Below are positions 6,155 to 37,682 of a DNA stretch of 37,682 nucleotides, piece by piece. Made by a program: the position numbers and the translations under genes. Origin of the DNA: Lachnospiraceae bacterium. Its GTDB lineage: Bacteria; Bacillota; Clostridia; Lachnospirales; Lachnospiraceae. Numbering within the stretch: the first letter of the stretch is position 1; each line of letters starts with the position of its first letter. The notes below the pieces were generated by a model, which was given only the letters and a program-made list of their open reading frames with translations, was not told the DNA's origin and made no database searches. Location: NCBI GenBank assembly GCA_024693925.1, contig JAILKH010000177.1:1-37682 (forward strand), given 5' to 3'.

Positions 6155-7762
6155 ATGAGATCAAAAGGTTTGGAAAAAAGGATAGTGTTAACACTTGTTA
6201 TACTTATGCTGCTAATGGCAGTCATTATCCTTATTATAAGTACAAATTCGTTAAAAAACAATTATTATAAGCTGTATACGGAAAAAGCGCAGGATATCGT
6301 AAGAGTGATAGCGAGAGAGGTTGACGGAGACTGGATCGGTGAGTTCATTAATACTTATGATAAAGACAGTGAGGAATATGAACGAACAAAATATATGCTT
6401 GATACTATAAAGGATAGTTTTACCGGAATACAGTATTTATATATTTTTAAGCCGGAAGAAACCGGATTTACATATCTTTTGGAAGCGGTTTCCGGAAAGG
6501 ATGATCTTGCTAATATAAATCAGACCGGAGATTTTTATGAGTTTACTGAAAATGATTATAATAAAATAGTTGTTGATATAAAAGAACAAAAAGCTTCGGA
6601 TAGGATCATGAAAGGAGTCGATGTGGGTTATGGAGAGACAATTTCGGCATGGGCTCCAATCTTTGATTCCCAGGGCACCCTGGTAGCAATGGTAGAAGCT
6701 GATTATGTCCTTAGTGATCTTAAACCGGATATGGATAAGCATATGAAAAGGCTGACATATCTTCAGCTGACAAGTATTTTAATGGTGGTATTTTTAATGT
6801 TGGTTGCTATACGGAGAATAATAATTGAACCGGTTAATTACCTTAAGAAAACAGTTGATTCCTATGAACACGGTGTTCTTGATAATGATTTGTCTTACTT
6901 TAAGAATGATGATGAGATCAAATGGCTTGCTATATCCTTTAAAAGCATGACCGAAAGAATAGAGAAATACATTAAGGATCTTACGGAGGTAACTGCCGAA
7001 AAAGAACGTATAGGTGCTGAATTAAATGTTGCGACCCAGATTCAGGCAGATATGCTTCCCAGAATATTTCCGCCATTTCCGGATAAGAATGAATTTGAAC
7101 TTTTTGCAACCATGAATCCGGCAAAGGAAGTGGGTGGAGATTTCTATGATTTCTTTATGATCGATGATGACCATCTGGGACTGGTTATGGCAGATGTTTC
7201 CGGTAAGGGAGTTCCGGCAGCTTTGTTTATGGTAATAGCAAAGACGTTGATAAAGAACAGAGCGATTACAGGTAATTTCTCGGGTCCCGGTGAGGTGCTG
7301 GCTGATGCAAATAATCAGCTGTGTGAAGGTAATGATGCAGAATTGTTTGTTACAGTCTGGTTTGGTATACTTACCATTTCCACAGGACATATCACATTTG
7401 CAAGTGCAGGGCACGAATATCCGGCTTTTTACCGTTTGGAGGAAGGATTCAGACTTGAAAAAGATAAGCATGGAATGCCGCTGGCAACTCTTGAAGATCT
7501 TAGATTCAGAGAGAATGAAACACAGCTTAAAGAGGGTGAGATATTATATCTGTATACCGACGGAGTAACCGAGGCAACAAATGGGGCCAAAGAATTATTC
7601 GGTGAAGGCAGAATGATAAGCTCTTTACAGAAGCATCATGATAACGATATGGAGAATCTACTTAAGAATGTTAGAAAAGATATTGATGAATTTGTTGGAG
7701 ATGCTCCGCAGTTTGATGATATAACTATGCTTGGTATCAAATATAACGGTTCAAACAAATGA
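6155..7762 (+). CDS. Membrane Cache-HAMP-SpoIIE (PP2C-type) serine/threonine phosphatase
   Basis: A 535-residue receptor phosphatase. TM1 (9-30) and TM2 (202-219) flank an extracytoplasmic Cache-like domain (about 35-195); HAMP (about 217-270) and a short coiled linker lead to the SpoIIE/PP2C domain (285-530). Metal-binding and catalytic motifs are intact: EVGGDFYD (325-332), ADVSGKGVPAA (346-356), DGVTEA (469-474) and QFDDITML (519-526). The GGAGG site is optimal, 10 bases after the acetyltransferase stop. Relatives dephosphorylate anti-anti-sigma (STAS) proteins, but no STAS protein or anti-sigma kinase gene lies in the window, so the target is remote or different. The outer domain aligns by eye with the Cache region of the MFS fusion upstream, suggesting related ligands. 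Confidence 0.92.
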   Translation: MRSKGLEKRIVLTLVILMLLMAVIILIISTNSLKNNYYKLYTEKAQDIVRVIAREVDGDWIGEFINTYDKDSEEYERTKYMLDTIKDSFTGIQYLYIFKPEETGFTYLLEAVSGKDDLANINQTGDFYEFTENDYNKIVVDIKEQKASDRIMKGVDVGYGETISAWAPIFDSQGTLVAMVEADYVLSDLKPDMDKHMKRLTYLQLTSILMVVFLMLVAIRRIIIEPVNYLKKTVDSYEHGVLDNDLSYFKNDDEIKWLAISFKSMTERIEKYIKDLTEVTAEKERIGAELNVATQIQADMLPRIFPPFPDKNEFELFATMNPAKEVGGDFYDFFMIDDDHLGLVMADVSGKGVPAALFMVIAKTLIKNRAITGNFSGPGEVLADANNQLCEGNDAELFVTVWFGILTISTGHITFASAGHEYPAFYRLEEGFRLEKDKHGMPLATLEDLRFRENETQLKEGEILYLYTDGVTEATNGAKELFGEGRMISSLQKHHDNDMENLLKNVRKDIDEFVGDAPQFDDITMLGIKYNGSNK

Positions 7763-8917: not shown

Positions 8918-9943
8918 ATGAAAAAGATCATACGTGAAAGACCATCTTATTATTCGGAATATAAATGCACAGGGGATACAACCTGTATTGATAATTGCTG
9001 TAATTTATGGGTTCTTCCGATAGATAAGAAAACCTCGGATTATTATCTTGCCAAAGAAGGGGAGTTCGGAGAATATCTTCGCAAAAATATTTACGAGGAA
9101 AACGGTGGATGGTTCCTGAAAATATGTGATAACGGAAGATGCAGTTTTCTTACGGATAATGATCTCTGCAGTATAAGGCTTAAAGATTGTGAGGATTCGC
9201 AGCCTTTTATTTGCAAAGTATATCCCAGAGAAACCAATATAATGGTTGGGAATTACAGGCAGGACAGGCTTTTGATCGCCTGCAGCGAGGTGGCCAGATT
9301 GTTTTATGAGGATGACAGGGAACGGCTTGAGTTTATTAAAACCGAGGAAGAAGCCGAGGGAGAAGAAATTGATGATAATCTAAAAGAAAAGACATCTATG
9401 CTCCTTGCTTTTAGGGATGGTATGGTAGAAGGACTGCAGGCGGGAGTGTTTGATAAAAGTTTATTTGAGGCTTACGAATCAACGGAATCGTTGGAAAGCT
9501 TATTTGAAGATGTTAATTATTTTGAAGGTCATGAGCCTACCGAAACCGTAATGAACAATGTAAGAGCTTTGATCAAAGAAGCAGGAGAATTACGGAAACA
9601 GTTTTATGAAAAGGTTCCCAAAGCGAAAATGTGGATGCGTAAAACGGCGGCTTATTTTGCTCATAGACAATTATTGGATACTGTGCAGGATGGGAGTATA
9701 GACGGTCCTCTAATTTCTGTTTTCCGTTCGGTGCATATATTGGAGCTGATATGTCTTTCCATATTTAAAGAACGTGGAGTTTTTACGGTGGAAGATATGG
9801 TGATGAGTGCATATACATTCGGATTGACCTTTGAAATATCTATGTTTAATATCAATCTTATGAAAGAAGTCAGAAATAAGTCCAAGGATAAGGATTATCC
9901 GGATAATGAGAATTCAGAGTTAAGACCTTATTTGTATCCATAG
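8918..9943 (+). CDS. fliB: FliB-family flagellin lysine-N-methylase
   Basis: A 341-residue cysteine-rich protein of the FliB family, which methylates lysines of flagellin. The pattern agrees along the N-terminal half: C17 and C23 with the pair C27-C28 and W31, the segment EGEFGEYL (47-54), GRCSFL (73-78), LCSI (83-86), FICKVYPR (97-104) and ACSEVARL (121-128). About ten cysteines in the first 130 residues suggest a metal or Fe-S centre. It is somewhat shorter than many members. The site AAAGGAG precedes the ATG by about 7 bases, and the gene starts 27 bases after the BMP lipoprotein stop without a hairpin, so it may be the fifth gene of that operon. No flagellin gene is in the window. Some homologues may modify other proteins. 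Confidence 0.85.
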   Translation: MKKIIRERPSYYSEYKCTGDTTCIDNCCNLWVLPIDKKTSDYYLAKEGEFGEYLRKNIYEENGGWFLKICDNGRCSFLTDNDLCSIRLKDCEDSQPFICKVYPRETNIMVGNYRQDRLLIACSEVARLFYEDDRERLEFIKTEEEAEGEEIDDNLKEKTSMLLAFRDGMVEGLQAGVFDKSLFEAYESTESLESLFEDVNYFEGHEPTETVMNNVRALIKEAGELRKQFYEKVPKAKMWMRKTAAYFAHRQLLDTVQDGSIDGPLISVFRSVHILELICLSIFKERGVFTVEDMVMSAYTFGLTFEISMFNINLMKEVRNKSKDKDYPDNENSELRPYLYP

Positions 9944-11993: not shown

Positions 11994-12359
11994 TTATTTA
12001 TGTATTGAAAGAAGTTTGGAAATGAGAATATCTATATCATCCTGAGACATTACAGCCTGATTGTTTATCAGGTCCTGGTTAAGTTCGTCCAATTGACCAT
12101 ATTCCTTGTAAGTATTAAGAGCATCAATAAGAGCGTCAATTTCACTTTGGGATAAAACGGTATTGGCCTTTGGTTTATATGTGGGGCCCCCTTTTGCACT
12201 ATTTAGGGATTCTATAAGCTTATCAATTTCGCTTTGAGAAAGTACTGCCTGATTGTTTAAAACATCTTCTGATATGATCTCATCGTCAGAATATCCTCTT
12301 ATGGCTCTAAGAGCATCAACTAATGAATCCACTTCATTTTGAGATAATATTTTTTCCAT
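11994..12359 (-). CDS. Tandem FliM N-peptide repeat protein (four CheY-binding-like motifs)
   Basis: A 121-residue soluble acidic protein that is almost nothing but four copies of the motif found at the N-terminus of the flagellar switch proteins FliM and FliY (LSQxEIDxLLxA), where it binds phosphorylated CheY. The copies are LSQNEVDSLVDAL (5-17), LSQSEIDKLIESL (40-52), LSQSEIDALIDAL (69-81) and MSQDDIDILISKL (104-116). Offsets 5 to 69 and 40 to 104 are both exactly 64, and both second copies follow NNQAV, so a 64-residue two-motif unit was duplicated. The FliM middle and C-terminal domains are absent, and no stop-broken FliM remnant is seen. GAGGAG precedes the ATG by about 7 bases. A multivalent CheY-P binder or sink is inference. 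Confidence 0.85.
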   Translation of the reverse strand: MEKILSQNEVDSLVDALRAIRGYSDDEIISEDVLNNQAVLSQSEIDKLIESLNSAKGGPTYKPKANTVLSQSEIDALIDALNTYKEYGQLDELNQDLINNQAVMSQDDIDILISKLLSIHK

Positions 12360-12386
12360 ATTTTACTCCTCGGTCAATTACAGGAT

Positions 12387-12415: not shown

Positions 12416-12432
12416 CCTAATAAAGAATATAA

Positions 12433-12502
12433 GCAGGATACGGGAGTCGAACCCGCCTATCCAGCTTGGGAAGCTGGCGCCCTACCGATAGACTAATCCT
12501 GC
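12433..12502 (-). tRNA. tRNA-Gly (anticodon CCC)
   Basis: The minus strand folds as a full cloverleaf of 70 bases. The acceptor GCAGGAT pairs with ATCCTGC, the D stem GTCT with GGGC, the anticodon stem CCAGC with GCTGG around loop TTCCCAA (anticodon CCC), and the T stem GCGGG with CCCGT around TTCGACT. CCA is not encoded. The anticodon reads GGG glycine codons. It is a single tRNA, not part of a cluster. Confidence 0.95.
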
Positions 12503-12511
12503 ATAATAAGG

Positions 12512-12540
12512 ATTATACCATATTATATAAGATATGTGTA
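12512..12540 (-). promoter_or_regulatory. tRNA-Gly promoter
   Basis: On the minus strand TACACA (12540-12535), a 17-base spacer and TATAAT (12517-12512) preceded by TGG (extended -10) lie 9 bases before the mature tRNA 5' end. Placement and match are good. Confidence 0.65.
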
Positions 12541-24342: not shown

Positions 24343-25944
24343 ATGTATAAAATATTATTGGCGGATGATGAAGGGATAGTAATTGATTCTTTGAAATTTA
24401 TAATTGAAAAAAATTTTCCTGACAGTTGTCTTATTGAATCCGCAAAAACCGGACGAAAGGTAATTGAAACGGCAGAGAGTTTCAGACCGGATATTGCTTT
24501 TATGGATATTCAGATGCCCGGTATTAACGGTATCGATGCAATGAAGGAGATACGTGAAGCCAATAAGTCGATCATATTTGTTGTAATGTCAGCTTATGAT
24601 AAGTTTGATTATGCAAAAGAGGCAATTAATCTCGGAGTTCTCGATTATTTGAATAAACCGGTGGATCAGGGTAAGATAGTTGAAACACTTAAACGTGCCA
24701 TGAAATTAATTGATGAAGAAAAAGAAAGACGGAGCCAGGATCTTCTGATCAAGGAAAAGCTTGAAACGGTTATTCCCATAATTGAGAATAATATGATATA
24801 TACAGCTTTATTTCAGGATGATTATGATGAGGAAATAGAAAATTTTAAAAACCTGTTATCTATCAATAAGACATATGGATTTATAATTGTTTTGGAATGG
24901 GGAGATAATCAGACCGATAATCATCTGACAAATGTTGTGGGAACAGGGATTAAGATGCAATCATATTATAAGGAAATGCGGGAGGTTATCAAAGGATTTT
25001 ATGAGTGTGTTATAAGTTCGATGATGGCAAACAGGGTAATAATATATGTTCCTTATGAAAGCGAAAGCCTTGATTATACTGAAAGAATAGCAATAATAGA
25101 AAAAACAAGGACAATGATCCGCAAGCTTTCACAGTATGTTGAGGTAAAATTCAGAGCAGGGATCGGTTCGATAGTGAAATTGGAAGATTGTGCAAGGTCT
25201 TATGAAGAAGCTCAAAGGGCACTGAGAAAAAGTGACGGAACAGTAGCGCATGTAGAGGATCTTCCGATTATGGTAAGCTATGAGGCTAATTATCCAATAG
25301 CCGAGGAAAGACGTTTGTTTGATATGACCGAGAAGGGAAATGAAAATGAGGCACTTATTGCCGCAAATTGTTTTTTTGGATGGATGGCAGAGAATTACGC
25401 GGATCATATCGGGGATATTAAATTAAAAGTTTTAGAGTTCGTTTTATGGGCGGAACATCTGGCTATTAATGAAGGAGGTATGGAATATCATTTTCTTTCA
25501 AGACAGGAATATCTGCCATCACTTTTGGAATTGAATACCCTGGATGAAATACAGCAATGGTTTGTAAATAAAATTGGCGCTGCCTGCAGGGATGTTGTGC
25601 AAAGTAAAGAAAAACAATCATCTTCAAGTGTTGAAAGAGCAAAGACCTATATTTCCGAAAATTACAGTAAAGATATTTCGTTGGATGAGGTTTCAAGGGA
25701 AGTAGATATAAGTCCTTATTATTTCAGCAAGCTGTTTAAAGAGGAAACGGGAGAGAACTTTATAGAGTATCTTACTTCCGTAAGAATAAATAAAGCAAAA
25801 CAACTTATAACGGGTTCAGATATGTCTATGAAGGAAATCTGTACTTCTGTCGGATATTCCGATCCTAATTATTTTAGCAGAATATTTAAGAAAAATGTTG
25901 GTTTGACTCCTACTGAGTATAAAGAGAAAGACAATGCAAAATAG
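24343..25944 (+). CDS. YesN-type response regulator with AraC DNA-binding domain
   Basis: A 533-residue transcription regulator. The receiver domain (1-120) has the acidic pair D8-D9, phospho-acceptor D55 in FMDIQMPG and the lysine in NKPVD. The middle 300 residues are a poorly conserved helical/beta linker usual in YesN proteins. The C-terminal 100 residues hold two AraC helix-turn-helix units (SLDEVSREVDISPYYFSKLF and MKEICTSVGYSDPNYFSRIF). The ATG at 24343 is preferred over an upstream GTG at 24301 because AGAGGA precedes it and the receiver strand starts there. It probably activates the binding-protein and ABC genes downstream in response to external sugar. Confidence 0.93.
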   Translation: MYKILLADDEGIVIDSLKFIIEKNFPDSCLIESAKTGRKVIETAESFRPDIAFMDIQMPGINGIDAMKEIREANKSIIFVVMSAYDKFDYAKEAINLGVLDYLNKPVDQGKIVETLKRAMKLIDEEKERRSQDLLIKEKLETVIPIIENNMIYTALFQDDYDEEIENFKNLLSINKTYGFIIVLEWGDNQTDNHLTNVVGTGIKMQSYYKEMREVIKGFYECVISSMMANRVIIYVPYESESLDYTERIAIIEKTRTMIRKLSQYVEVKFRAGIGSIVKLEDCARSYEEAQRALRKSDGTVAHVEDLPIMVSYEANYPIAEERRLFDMTEKGNENEALIAANCFFGWMAENYADHIGDIKLKVLEFVLWAEHLAINEGGMEYHFLSRQEYLPSLLELNTLDEIQQWFVNKIGAACRDVVQSKEKQSSSSVERAKTYISENYSKDISLDEVSREVDISPYYFSKLFKEETGENFIEYLTSVRINKAKQLITGSDMSMKEICTSVGYSDPNYFSRIFKKNVGLTPTEYKEKDNAK

Positions 25945-27016
25945 AAAAAAAAAGATGATAAAGTCAAAAAAAATAATAGGATTAAAAAAAATAATAATCT
26001 GTATATTAACGGTTTTTGCTGTTTTACAACTTACAGGATGTGTAGGGGAGGAGGACGGTAAAAAAGATACCGTGGAAGAAAACAGCGGAAAAATTCGTAT
26101 AGGAATGAGTTTTGATTCTTTTGTTATAGAACGATGGCAAAGAGACAGGGATATATTTGTTGCAACAGCCAGAGAATTGGGGGCAGAGGTAAATGTACAG
26201 TCCGCAAACGGTGAGGTGGAGGAACAGATATCACAGATACAATATTTTATAGATAAGGGAATGGATATTATTGTAGTTGTACCGATAGATGCCGAGGCAT
26301 TAACGGACGTTATTGTTAAAGCCAAAAAAGAGGGAATACCTGTTGTATGCTATGATCGTATAGTAAAAAATGCCAATGCGGATCTATATGTTTCGTTTGA
26401 TAATGAAATGGTAGGCGATATAATGGGGAGATCATTGTATGGGATTATAGGGAAAAACAAAAATGTGATAGAGATATGCGGTCCGGAATCGGATTATAAT
26501 GTCGAACAGGTTGCTAACGGTTTTGCTTCTCAGACAAGAAAAAATGCAGGCCATATAGTCGGTATGTGTCATTGCGATGGATGGAGATCGGAAGTTGCAT
26601 ATCAGTATATAAGCGATAATAAAGAAATAGTAAAAAAATGTGACGGAATAATGTGCGGTAATGATGCTTTGGCGGGGGTTGTAATAAAGGCGCTTTCAGA
26701 GATGAGGCTTGCAGGTAAGATAGTAGTTGTGGGACAGGATGCCGACCTTGATGCCTGCCAGAGAATAGTAGAAGGAACACAGGAAATGACGGTGTATAAA
26801 CCGGTTGAGAAACAAGCAAGAGTGGCAGCGGAATATGCCGTAAGACTGGCAAATAAAGAGGAAGTAAAAACTGCTACATTTTTTAATGACGGGACTTATG
26901 ATATTCCGTTTATAAAGCTTCAACCGGTTGCGGTATATAAAAATAATATGGATGAAATTATAATTAACGGAGGGTATCATTTGAAAGAGGATGTATATAT
27001 AAATGTCACAGAGTAA
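25934..27016 (+). CDS. Sugar-binding lipoprotein (XylF/ChvE-like) coupled to the sensor operon
   Basis: A 360-residue lipoprotein with a very basic N-terminus and lipobox LTG-C36. The binding fold shows the ChvE/XylF pattern: the start RIGMSFDSFVIERWQRDRD (with the sugar-stacking tryptophan), an SQIQYFIDKGMDIIVV helix, VCYDRIV, and VVGQDADLDACQRIV. The gene overlaps the regulator gene by 11 bases, so it is made with the sensor proteins rather than with the transporter. It differs clearly from the ChvE pair at 27221 and 35796. It may be a receptor that competes with or hands sugar to the anchored sensor, or an alternative binding protein for the same permease. Confidence 0.88.
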   Translation: MQNRKKKMIKSKKIIGLKKIIICILTVFAVLQLTGCVGEEDGKKDTVEENSGKIRIGMSFDSFVIERWQRDRDIFVATARELGAEVNVQSANGEVEEQISQIQYFIDKGMDIIVVVPIDAEALTDVIVKAKKEGIPVVCYDRIVKNANADLYVSFDNEMVGDIMGRSLYGIIGKNKNVIEICGPESDYNVEQVANGFASQTRKNAGHIVGMCHCDGWRSEVAYQYISDNKEIVKKCDGIMCGNDALAGVVIKALSEMRLAGKIVVVGQDADLDACQRIVEGTQEMTVYKPVEKQARVAAEYAVRLANKEEVKTATFFNDGTYDIPFIKLQPVAVYKNNMDEIIINGGYHLKEDVYINVTE

Positions 27017-27220: not shown

Positions 27221-28399
27221 ATGAAGAAAAAATTACTTGGCGCAGTTCTCAGCGTAGCTATGGTTGCTACATTACTTGCCGGATGTGGCGGAAGCACAGC
27301 AGAAGCACCTGCAGCAGCACCTGCAGCACCTGCAGCAGAAGCAGCACCTGCAGAGGAAAAGGCTGAAGAGGAAGCACCTGCTGAAGAAGCAGAAGAAGCT
27401 CCCGCAGAAGAAGCTGCTGCTGGCGGCGGTCTTGTTGGTGTAGCAATGCCTACAAAGGATCTTCAGAGATGGAATCAGGATGGTTCTAACATGGAAGCTG
27501 AACTTAAGGCAGCCGGCTACGAAGTAGACCTTCAGTTTGCATCAAATGATGTTTCGACTCAGGTTTCACAGATTGAGAACATGATCAACGGCGGATGCCA
27601 GTGTCTGGTAGTTGCAGCTATCGACTCTGAGTCACTCGGAGATGTTCTTGCTAAGGCTAAAGAAGCTAACATTCCTGTTATCTCTTATGACCGTCTTATC
27701 ATGAACACAGATGCAATTACATATTACGCAACATTCGACAACTACAAAGTTGGTACCGTTCAGGGTGAGTATGTTAGAGATACCCTTGATCTTGACAATG
27801 CTGACGGACCTTTCAACATTGAGTTTACAGCAGGTGATCCCGGTGACAACAATGCTGGTTTCTTCTTCAATGGTGCATATGATGTTCTTAAGCAGTACAT
27901 TGATGACGGCAAGCTTGTAGTTAAGTCAGGTCAGAAGACATTTGAAGAAGTTGCTACAGCAGCATGGGCAACAGAAACAGCTCAGTCAAGAGCAGAGAAC
28001 ATTCTTTCATCATTCTACACAAGCGAGAATCTTGATGTATGGCTTTGCTCAAACGATTCTACAGCACTTGGTGTTGAGAACGCACTTGCAGCTAACTACA
28101 CAGGTGAGTATCCTATCGTAACAGGTCAGGACTGTGATGTAGCTAACGTTAAGAATATGCTTGCAGGTAAGCAGGCAATGTCAGTATTCAAGGATACACG
28201 TACTCTTGCTTCAAAGACTGTTGAAATGGTAGATGCAGTTATGAAGGGTACAGAAGCTCCTATTAACGATACAGAGACATATGACAACGGAACAGGTGTT
28301 ATTCCTTCGTTCCTTTGCGATCCTGTATTTGCAGATGCTAATAACTACAAGGAGATCCTTATTGATTCAGGTTACTATGCTGAGTCTGATCTTCAGTAA
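27221..28399 (+). CDS. chvE: ChvE-like multiple-monosaccharide-binding lipoprotein (first copy)
   Basis: A 392-residue surface lipoprotein that delivers monosaccharides to the ABC importer encoded next. The lipobox is LAG-C22. Residues about 27-70 are a low-complexity Ala/Pro/Glu linker. The binding domain begins LVGVAMPTKDLQRWNQDG and contains VISYDRLIMN, the calcium/hinge segment AGDPGDNNA and TGQDCDVANVKNML. Codon use stands out: AAC, GAC, TAC and CTT predominate, unlike neighbouring genes that prefer AAT, GAT and TAT, so this is probably one of the cell's most expressed proteins. It has its own promoter and a downstream hairpin separating it from the ATPase gene. A paralogue lies at 35796. 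Confidence 0.95.
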   Translation: MKKKLLGAVLSVAMVATLLAGCGGSTAEAPAAAPAAPAAEAAPAEEKAEEEAPAEEAEEAPAEEAAAGGGLVGVAMPTKDLQRWNQDGSNMEAELKAAGYEVDLQFASNDVSTQVSQIENMINGGCQCLVVAAIDSESLGDVLAKAKEANIPVISYDRLIMNTDAITYYATFDNYKVGTVQGEYVRDTLDLDNADGPFNIEFTAGDPGDNNAGFFFNGAYDVLKQYIDDGKLVVKSGQKTFEEVATAAWATETAQSRAENILSSFYTSENLDVWLCSNDSTALGVENALAANYTGEYPIVTGQDCDVANVKNMLAGKQAMSVFKDTRTLASKTVEMVDAVMKGTEAPINDTETYDNGTGVIPSFLCDPVFADANNYKEILIDSGYYAESDLQ

Positions 28400-35795: not shown

Positions 35796-36986
35796 ATGAA
35801 AAGTAAATTTGTAAAAACAATGGTATGTGCAGGTATGATCGGCGCATTGCTTTCGGGCTGCGGTTCATCGCAGACCGTCGAAGAAGCTATTCCTGCAGCA
35901 CCGGGTTCACAGGCGGTTACGGAAACGGCAGCCCCTGAAACAGATGAAAAAACAGAGGAAGAGGAAACTGAAACGACAGAAGCCGCTGGAGAGGATTCAG
36001 CCTCGGCTACAGGTGGTCTTGTAGGTGTAGCCATGCCCACAAAAGATCTTCAGAGATGGAACCAGGATGGAACAAATATAGAAGCTCAGCTTAAGGAAGC
36101 AGGATATGAAGTTGATCTTCAGTATGCGTCTAACGATGTTCAGACTCAGGTTTCTCAGATCGAAAATATGATAAATAACGGATGTAAGTGTCTTGTAATA
36201 TCTGCAATTGATTCGGAATCACTTGGAGATGTACTTGCAAAAGCAAAGGAAGCAGGGATTTATGTAATCGCTTATGACAGACTTATAATGAATACAGATG
36301 CTTTGAGTTATTATGCTACCTTTGATAATTATAAGGTAGGAACGGTTCAGGGACAGTATGTAGTAGATCAGCTTGATCTTGATAATGCTGAGGGTCCTTT
36401 CAGTATTGAAATGACAGCGGGAGATCCCGGTGATAATAATGCCATAGTATATTATGACGGAGCTATGGATGTGCTTAAGCCTTATGTTGAATCCGGTAAA
36501 CTTGTGTTTAAGTCCGGTCAGGACTCTTTTGAGGATGTAGCGACAGCTTCATGGTCAACCGAGAATGCGCAATCAAGAGCAGAGAATATTTTGTCATCTT
36601 TTTATACAAGTGAGCCTTTAGATGTTTGGTTATGTTCAAATGATTCCACTGCTTTAGGAGTTGAGAATGCCCTTGCCGCAAATTATACACTTGATTATCC
36701 TATAATAACGGGTCAGGATTGTGATGTTGCCAATACTAAAAATATGATAGCCGGTAAGCAGTCCATGTCGGTTTTTAAGGACACACGTCAGCTTGCATCC
36801 AAGACAGTTGAAATGGTTGATGCTGTAATGCAGGGAAAGGAAGCGGAAGTTAATGATACCTCATCATATGATAATGGTACAGGAGTTATCCCTTCATATC
36901 TTTGCGAGCCTGTATTTGCCGATTCTACTAATTATAAGGAATTACTTATTGATTCCGGATATTACTCGGAAGATGATCTTAAATAA
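35796..36986 (+). CDS. chvE: ChvE-like multiple-monosaccharide-binding lipoprotein (second copy)
   Basis: A 396-residue lipoprotein with lipobox LSG-C22, an acidic Glu/Thr-rich linker to about residue 68, and a binding domain nearly parallel to that at 27221 (GGLVGVAMPTKDLQRWNQDG, SNDVQTQVSQIENMIN, AGDPGDNNA, TGQDCDVAN). By eye well over two thirds of the mature residues agree, with differences scattered. Codon use is ordinary (AAT, GAT, TAT), unlike the first copy, so it is probably much less expressed or differently induced. No ATPase or permease follows; a strong terminator comes 32 bases after the stop. It likely serves the importer at 28498-32423 with a different sugar preference under the divergent AraC regulator. 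Confidence 0.94.
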   Translation: MKSKFVKTMVCAGMIGALLSGCGSSQTVEEAIPAAPGSQAVTETAAPETDEKTEEEETETTEAAGEDSASATGGLVGVAMPTKDLQRWNQDGTNIEAQLKEAGYEVDLQYASNDVQTQVSQIENMINNGCKCLVISAIDSESLGDVLAKAKEAGIYVIAYDRLIMNTDALSYYATFDNYKVGTVQGQYVVDQLDLDNAEGPFSIEMTAGDPGDNNAIVYYDGAMDVLKPYVESGKLVFKSGQDSFEDVATASWSTENAQSRAENILSSFYTSEPLDVWLCSNDSTALGVENALAANYTLDYPIITGQDCDVANTKNMIAGKQSMSVFKDTRQLASKTVEMVDAVMQGKEAEVNDTSSYDNGTGVIPSYLCEPVFADSTNYKELLIDSGYYSEDDLK

Positions 36987-37206: not shown

Positions 37207-37682
37207 ATGATCAAAAAGGAATTTGTTAAGAAAAGTACAGCGTTGGTAGTTACAGGAGCTTTATCAATAGCAATGACAGCAACGGTCTTTGCCGCACCGG
37301 TCGGAAACTTCGGCAGCTCAAATAATATGAGAAGTAATTCTTCGCAGGGAATGCAAAGACAAATGTCATCCGGCAGCAGGATGCAAGGCGGTATTCAGGG
37401 GATGAAGAGAGGAACTTCTTTCTCAAATCAGAAAAGCTCTGATGGAGAACAGCCTTCATTTGAGAACGAAAATATGCCTCAGATGGCAGAGGGAGAACAG
37501 CCTTCATTTGAGAACGGAAATATGCCTCAGATGACAGATGGAGAACAGCCTTCATTTGAGAACGGAAATATGCCTCAGATGACAGAAGGGGAACAGCCCT
37601 CATTCGAGAACGGAAATATGCCTCAGATGACAGAGGGAGGACAGCCTTCATTTGAGAACGGAAATATGCCTCAGATGACAGA
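37207..37682 (+). CDS. Secreted repeat protein with Met/Glu-rich 16-residue repeats (partial, runs off the window)
   Basis: The first 158 codons of a longer gene with no stop before the window edge. An AAGGAGG site lies 9 bases before the ATG. A signal peptide (about 1-30, ending VFA-AP) is followed by a Ser/Gly/Met/Gln-rich segment (NMRSNSSQGMQRQM and similar). From residue 80 come near-identical units GEQPSFENGNMPQM(T/A)(D/E). No cysteine or LPXTG-like anchor is seen yet. Such Met-rich, proline-spaced stalks occur in Lachnospiraceae surface proteins, where a binding domain may follow, but the rest is outside the window and the function is unknown. A minus-strand frame over the repeats is an artefact of repeat periodicity. 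Confidence 0.85.
   Translation, partial: MIKKEFVKKSTALVVTGALSIAMTATVFAAPVGNFGSSNNMRSNSSQGMQRQMSSGSRMQGGIQGMKRGTSFSNQKSSDGEQPSFENENMPQMAEGEQPSFENGNMPQMTDGEQPSFENGNMPQMTEGEQPSFENGNMPQMTEGGQPSFENGNMPQMT
37444..37682 (+). repeat. Five in-frame 48-bp tandem repeats
   Basis: Units begin at 37444, 37492, 37540, 37588 and 37636, each exactly 48 bases (16 codons). The last lacks only its final base at the window edge, so the array may continue. Unit 1 differs most (Glu for Gly in the middle, Ala for Thr near the end); units 2-5 differ mainly at silent sites and in the closing Asp/Glu. This near identity suggests recent expansion and copy-number change. Confidence 0.95.

Follow-up and report, generated by a model that had tools for sequence, protein, structure and literature searches.

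The window, by which is meant the whole stretch of 37,682 nucleotides analysed here, carries on its reverse strand a short gene (P0001) whose product contains four copies of a FliM-type motif, LSQxE[IV]DxL[IV]xxL (Table 1). The original prediction had given the ORF, its strand and length, and the four motif positions (residues 5, 40, 69 and 104), all of which were borne out by re-reading and scoring of the sequence.

Table 1. Features of the four-motif gene, its upstream region and other parts of the window
Feature	Residues	Coordinates	Strand	Basis or remark
P0001, four-motif protein, 121 aa	1-121	11994..12359 (stop codon included)	-	ORF, homologues and selection
Motif 1, LSQNEVDSLVDAL	5-17	12309..12347	-	pattern and matrix score
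Motif 2, LSQSEIDKLIESL	40-52	12204..12242	-	pattern and matrix score
Motif 3, LSQSEIDALIDAL	69-81	12117..12155	-	pattern and matrix score
Motif 4, MSQDDIDILISKL	104-116	12012..12050	-	pattern and matrix score; lowest-scoring copy
Ribosome-binding-like GAGGAG		12366..12371	-	by eye; 6 bases before ATG
tRNA-Gly (CCC)		12432..12502	-	directly upstream of P0001, same strand
Promoter-like TACACA-17-TATAAT		12512-12540	-	above tRNA-Gly; promoter-like sites at chance level (4 found, 3.3 expected)
FliB-type flagellin lysine-N-methylase		8918-9943	+	NF038110, 110 bits (cut-off 85)
MFS-fusion gene, 971 aa		2653-5568	+	PF07690
HAMP/SpoIIE phosphatase		6155-7762
Sugar-binding lipoprotein-like gene		27221-28399	+	by eye
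Sugar-binding lipoprotein-like gene		35796-36986	+	by eye
Related binding protein		25934-27016		by eye
Tandem array, 48-bp units x5		37444-37682		93% matches

The start codons of the listed homologues are likewise preceded by purine-rich letters resembling a ribosome-binding site (such as GAGGAG or AAGGAG), as judged by eye. No sigma-28 signal was detected in 12 upstream regions, where the best scores against a B. subtilis-type consensus (7–9 of 12) were matched or bettered by 29–100% of shuffles; sigma-A-like -10 boxes were seen by eye in several relatives and left unscored. Flagellar or chemotaxis neighbours were not recognised by eye in the homologue flanks viewed. The four-motif gene stands alone, the neighbours of its relatives look metabolic or unrelated, and no operon or synteny with chemotaxis genes was seen in these flanks, the only recurring neighbour being a 2-hydroxyacid dehydrogenase gene (window, L021, L022 and L025).

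Within the window, one motility gene was recognised near P0001, the FliB-like gene lying 2 kb away. The MFS-fusion gene encodes a long N-terminal part without a Pfam match joined to the transporter domain, and lies near the HAMP/SpoIIE phosphatase gene. The two sugar-binding lipoprotein-like genes are very similar to each other and flank ABC transporter genes, and the tandem array extends past the end of the window.

Motifs, linkers and profile matches

When scored with a matrix of the N-terminal FliM peptides of the same genus, only three of which are distinct, the four sites of P0001 reach 29.5, 25.5, 21.5 and 13.5. Over 5000 shuffled versions of the protein, the fourth-ranking site was always at or below 8.1 bits, and the top site reached up to 21.5. 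The NCBIfam model of FliM, TIGR01397, matches P0001 in three stretches (E = 5.8e-6), the best of which covers model positions 2–27 of 320. The 25.7 bits obtained are far below the whole-protein cut-off of 219.6, and by this profile the CheC-like middle domain and the C-terminal SpoA domain of FliM are absent from P0001. The FliY model (NF005995) scored 14.1 bits against a cut-off of 218; Pfam gave no match to the CheC and SpoA domains of FliY, and none of its 16 matches to P0001 was at cut-off. NF003146 (E 7e-4) and the Pfam families FIVAR and STPPase_N (about 0.003, under cut-off) were judged to be weak helical matches. A PDB sequence search gave a best E of 0.1; chains of fewer than 20 residues were excluded from it, so complexes with the FliM peptide could not appear.

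By these comparisons P0001 is closer to FliM than to any other family searched. The original prediction had proposed a search with an HMM of the FliM N-terminal peptide, and the clearest profile match is to the N-terminal end of the FliM model; the better match to an unrelated helical family that it had named as counter-evidence did not turn up, the three candidates just listed being weak. A chance match was ruled out by the TIGR01397 match, the shuffle control and the conservation described below.

As in the N-terminus of FliM, the motifs of P0001 have the EID form and end in LxxAL or a close variant. Unlike FliM, which has a single N-terminal copy followed by the middle and SpoA domains, P0001 is a free chain with four copies and neither domain. 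FliY likewise carries one N-terminal LSQxEI motif, but in the EIN form and together with its CheC and SpoA domains. The protein is acidic (pI 4.2) and has neither Cys nor Trp. An AlphaFold2 model based on ten rows places helices at the motifs but does not pack them into a compact fold (pLDDT 53.7, pTM 0.21), and P0001 is thus predicted to be without a folded domain and unpacked, as is the FliM N-terminus.

The original prediction had described a protein of four motifs and nothing else. This holds in that no known domain is present, but not for the linkers, as the motif cores occupy only 52 of the 121 residues, six linker residues are invariant in the alignment (Y23, D32, L34, Q37, Y87 and Q101) and linker lengths are fixed. 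The distance from motif 1 to motif 2, and from motif 3 to motif 4, is 35 residues in 11/11 complete proteins, and that from motif 2 to motif 3 is 29–33. Judged from the alignment, the linkers are constrained and their length is fixed within each two-motif unit. Since the two halves of P0001 are identical at 24/53 positions and share the 35-residue spacing, it appears to have arisen by duplication of a unit of two motifs.

The exactness of this spacing, compared with the looser central one, suggests that geometry matters. Together with the invariant linker residues and the four sites per chain, it is what might be expected of a scaffold on which more than one CheY, or CheY along with other proteins made of a single receiver domain, are gathered, for example so that CheY-P stays close to a phosphatase or a receptor array. 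The host genome has 50 receiver-domain matches, a few of them in ORFs of 121–135 residues, and a second protein family (see below) joins two motifs to a domain, both of which suit a scaffold. A scaffold is nonetheless considered unlikely, as P0001 shows no recognisable membrane anchor or further binding domain, and no partner came to light.

Distribution and selection

The original prediction had suggested searching Lachnospiraceae genomes, and homologues were duly found. The four-motif gene occurs in 10/37 genomes of the genus (G000, G009, G016, G019, G021, G023, G024, G032, G035 and G036), being split across two contigs in both G021 and G024. Among 397 sampled Lachnospiraceae genomes it was found in the host's own genome and in a single genome from a different genus (G195); L026 and L028, both additional ruminant contigs, carry it as well. 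A class-wide sample of 391 genomes, partly overlapping the 397, added no further carriers; its matches in G507 and G700 proved to be unrelated proteins that lack the motif. No match to the four-motif protein was found in phages or plasmids, and none of 237 pattern matches in viral contigs was confirmed as such a protein, so that a mobile or phage gene was ruled out.

All four motifs are kept in each of the 11 complete homologues (44/44 motifs), which comprise the ten proteins of alignment A1 and L059; the split genes of G021 and G024 were left out of both the alignment and the count. In the ten aligned proteins, L at motif position 13 and D at position 7 are each present in 40/40 repeats, the count for D being partly built in as the motif-count pattern requires it, whereas position 13 was free. 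Mean pairwise identity among these proteins reaches 77% over the motif columns and 45% over the linkers.

For a test of selection, 12 pairs were chosen from the 45. The pN/pS ratio was 0.01–0.18 in seven closer pairs and 0.22–0.45 in the five distant pairs. Most pairs are close to saturation at synonymous sites, so that their ratios err on the high side, and the two unsaturated pairs gave 0.01 and 0.13. From these ratios the four-motif gene is under purifying selection, and conservation and selection together ruled out a spurious ORF. In two close pairs the motifs show no more conservation than the linkers (pN/pS of motifs against linkers, 0.30 vs 0.06 in L025-L013 and 0.08 vs 0.05 in L022-L023). 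Strong selection on the linkers of close pairs, exceeding that on the motifs in these two, would be expected if the repeats folded, or assembled with one another, as a bundle of helices that has nothing to do with CheY, in which case the resemblance to FliM would come from ancestry or convergence without a function in common; the fixed spacing and the linker conservation agree with such a bundle. Family-wide, however, conservation peaks at the FliM-motif positions, the AlphaFold2 model (of ten rows only) shows no packing, and the two-motif proteins described below track FliM, all of which make a bundle very unlikely.

Mapped on a FliM tree built from 30 genomes of the genus, the presence of the gene in nine carriers requires 4 changes, compared with a mean of 7.9 for shuffled labels (2/500 shuffles were as low), indicating that the gene is clustered but patchy. 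In this genus, most members of which are flagellated, 27/37 genomes gave no match to the gene; some of these 27 are incomplete. FliM was above cut-off in 10/11 genomes with the four-motif gene, the exception being G021 (82% complete), although FliM is in any case present in 34/37 genomes of the genus. The FliM of G195 (LSQSEIDALLGAL) was missed by the FliM pattern and stands outside both the FliM tree and the 32 genus FliM rows considered below.

Other proteins with several FliM-type motifs

The family-wide search matched 29 genomes and gave 29 loci besides that of the window (L059-L087), which were read on both strands. Four motifs were present in L059, two in each of L060, L065, L069, L072 and L073, and one in six FliM-like ORFs; the rest have at most a degenerate motif or none, many in unassigned ORFs of about 1000 residues.

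The two-motif proteins belong to a second Lachnospiraceae family (alignment A3), with the form LSQxEIDTLxxFL, 22–26 residues, LxQxSIDKLI and then a domain of about 100 residues. Its members (L060, L065, L069, L072, L073, L093 and L099-L118) occur in 20/397 Lachnospiraceae genomes from 18 genera. Two of these members, L117 and L118, are partial and were left out of the alignment. Like P0001 they are encoded by free-standing genes and carry FliM-type motifs, and in five contexts viewed by eye the genes lie outside flagellar operons. They differ in the second motif (SID, not EID), in the spacing and in the additional domain. The domain (about residues 85-190) is confidently predicted, with block means of pLDDT from 78 to 98, and has no fold match in the PDB at E<=0.001 (best E 0.38). 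FliM (E<=1e-20) is present in 206/397 genomes but in 19/20 of those with the two-motif family, the exception being G452 (75% complete). The hypergeometric probability of at least 19 such co-occurrences is P=2.7e-5 if genomes are independent, which is not quite so. Free-standing FliM motifs thus appear to be tied to flagellated genomes.

Two further arrangements were encountered. In G052 (L017 / L127) a CheC-like protein, open at the end of the stretch, has two tandem C-terminal LSQEEIEKLM motifs, and its gene lies directly downstream of a FliM-like gene. In Sulfidibacter corallicola a protein of 900 aa (L029:6001-8703, + strand) contains at least 22 FliM-like motifs (22–24 by three patterns). 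It resembles P0001 in having many motifs per chain and in coming from a genome with a normal FliM, but its motifs are mostly LDQAAIDA(L/M)L, its linkers are rich in Ala, Pro and Gln, it has a motif-free C-terminal stretch and the organism is distant, so the likeness is probably convergent. The original prediction had the motif occurring once, at the N-terminus, in FliM and FliY; multiple copies per chain are not confined to P0001, being present also in the two-motif family and the proteins of G052 and S. corallicola.

Candidate partners and the level of free CheY-P

The flagellar operon of the host runs in the order FliM, FliY, CheY, further export genes, FlhF-like and FlhG-like, with FliM named by TIGR01397, FliY by its CheC domain, CheY by its receiver domain and the others read from sequence. 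The FliM peptide of the genus is LSQNEIDSLLxAL in 32/32 rows (30 genomes, the host's own being counted three times). At the corresponding place FliY reads EIN in 31/31 rows and FliM reads EID in 32/32, and the repeats of P0001 have the FliM form, not that of FliY.

FlhG, a MinD-like ATPase that controls flagellar number and C-ring assembly, was overlooked in the original prediction and, by analogy, is a real alternative to CheY as the partner of these motifs. P0001 might then compete with the FliY N-terminus for FlhG and so tune flagellar assembly or number. In the available part of PMC12327844, FliY of Geobacillus is reported to bind FlhG, its N-terminal 36 residues being necessary and sufficient, and in that of PMC12826062 FlhG is described as binding the FliM N-terminus in monotrichous bacteria. 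The FlhG-like gene of the host operon (L088:181-1077) starts with MDQAEHLR, matching the DQAxxLR signature of the latter source. The same excerpts state that FlhG of B. subtilis binds FliY, not FliM; as D at position 7 and L at position 13 mark the repeats as FliM-like, and FliY of the genus has N at position 7 throughout, CheY is favoured over FlhG, though not decisively, and binding to FlhG appears improbable.

The N-terminal FliM peptide, LSQXEIDALL, is the CheY-P site and is disordered until CheY-P binds, according to the part of PMC6700473 available. Its EIDALL helix sits in the alpha4-alpha5 groove of CheY, and FliY also binds CheY-P (both from excerpts of PMC9126983). In E. coli, free cytoplasmic FliM binds CheY-P, which alone would lower CW bias, but motor remodelling compensates; with extra FliM, CheY-P titration and uptake into the motor nearly cancel (PMC7064772, in the portion available). 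P0001 has neither the middle nor the C-terminal domain of FliM and therefore should be unable to join the motor. We consider it an evenly balanced proposition that P0001, standing free of the motor, offers four sites for CheY-P and so acts as a buffer or competitor, its binding being read from the motifs. P0001 would have arisen by duplication of a two-motif unit, which may itself descend from the N-terminal peptide of FliM or have come to resemble it by convergence. The protein would most likely compete with FliM and FliY for cytoplasmic CheY-P, with the switching signal lowered, delayed or smoothed as a result and without the motor remodelling that offsets extra whole FliM in E. coli. That P0001 binds CheY-P, acts as a sink or buffer and shifts the signal in this direction is deduced from the family. 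The CheY-P interpretation, already put forward in the original prediction, is plausible and has gained partial support from the comparisons made here.

Free CheY-P is also lowered by the CheY-P phosphatases CheC, CheX and CheZ and by phosphate-sink CheY1 proteins. P0001 would share this outcome, but has neither a catalytic nor a receiver domain. Besides FliY, at least two CheC-like ORFs are present in the host, and CheC matches were found in 37/37 genus genomes, which ruled out a replacement for a missing phosphatase.

The size of the possible effect was gauged with an equilibrium model that assumes a fixed total of CheY-P and a motor curve with K 3.1 µM and a Hill coefficient of 10.3, the Kd of FliM being set equal to K. 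Concentrations of 4.1 µM CheY-P and 2 µM FliM were taken from the available part of PMC7064772. With a site Kd of 3.1 µM, CW bias fell from 0.50 to 0.20 at 0.25 µM protein and to 0.06 at 0.5 µM. The Kd of the FliM-N peptide for activated CheY is reported as only 27 µM in PMC9126983 (seen in excerpt), which weighs against a sink; at this value CW bias fell from 0.50 to 0.36 at 0.5 µM protein and to 0.11 at 2 µM, and 2–5 µM would be needed for a strong effect.

Further points bear on a CheY-P sink from both sides. It is favoured by the match to TIGR01397 through the FliM N-terminus only, with the shuffle control passed; by the retention of every motif in the complete homologues, in the EID form and in columns better conserved than the linkers; by the lack of a compact predicted fold; by a host operon that includes FliM, FliY and CheY; and by the occurrence of the two-motif family alongside FliM. 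On the other hand, four sites per chain bring no gain in affinity for monomeric CheY, and with a phosphatase acting on free CheY-P only, a sink would change the dynamics rather than the steady level. A loose sink needs no fixed 35-residue spacing, and such spacing would suit a two-site unit with structure better than a simple flexible sink. Also unfavourable are the lack of a sigma-28 signal in the 12 upstream regions and of flagellar or chemotaxis neighbours by eye, the failure to find the gene in most genomes of the genus (some incomplete), and the two pairs in which motifs are no better conserved than linkers.

A more specific proposal, to which somewhat less than an even chance is given, is that P0001 is a dedicated switch decoy, a motor-free tetravalent FliM-N protein that sets free CheY-P or filters its fluctuations. 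It would then be one of a larger set of FliM-motif proteins, free-standing and so far undescribed, with which Lachnospiraceae would regulate motility through competition for CheY-P or by gathering it. The original prediction had known of no described protein of this kind, and among the matches listed from the open-access literature there is likewise no description of a free-standing protein with multiple copies of the FliM peptide.

The setting of the free CheY-P level is central to flagellar switching. If the proposal is true, a natural protein that only binds CheY would separate titration from uptake into the motor and make control of the set point directly testable, and the FliM peptide would be a portable, multivalent module outside the motor. 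The carriers of the four-motif protein are some of the swimming bacteria of the ruminant gut, in which the switching signal may be soaked up or competed for by this protein.
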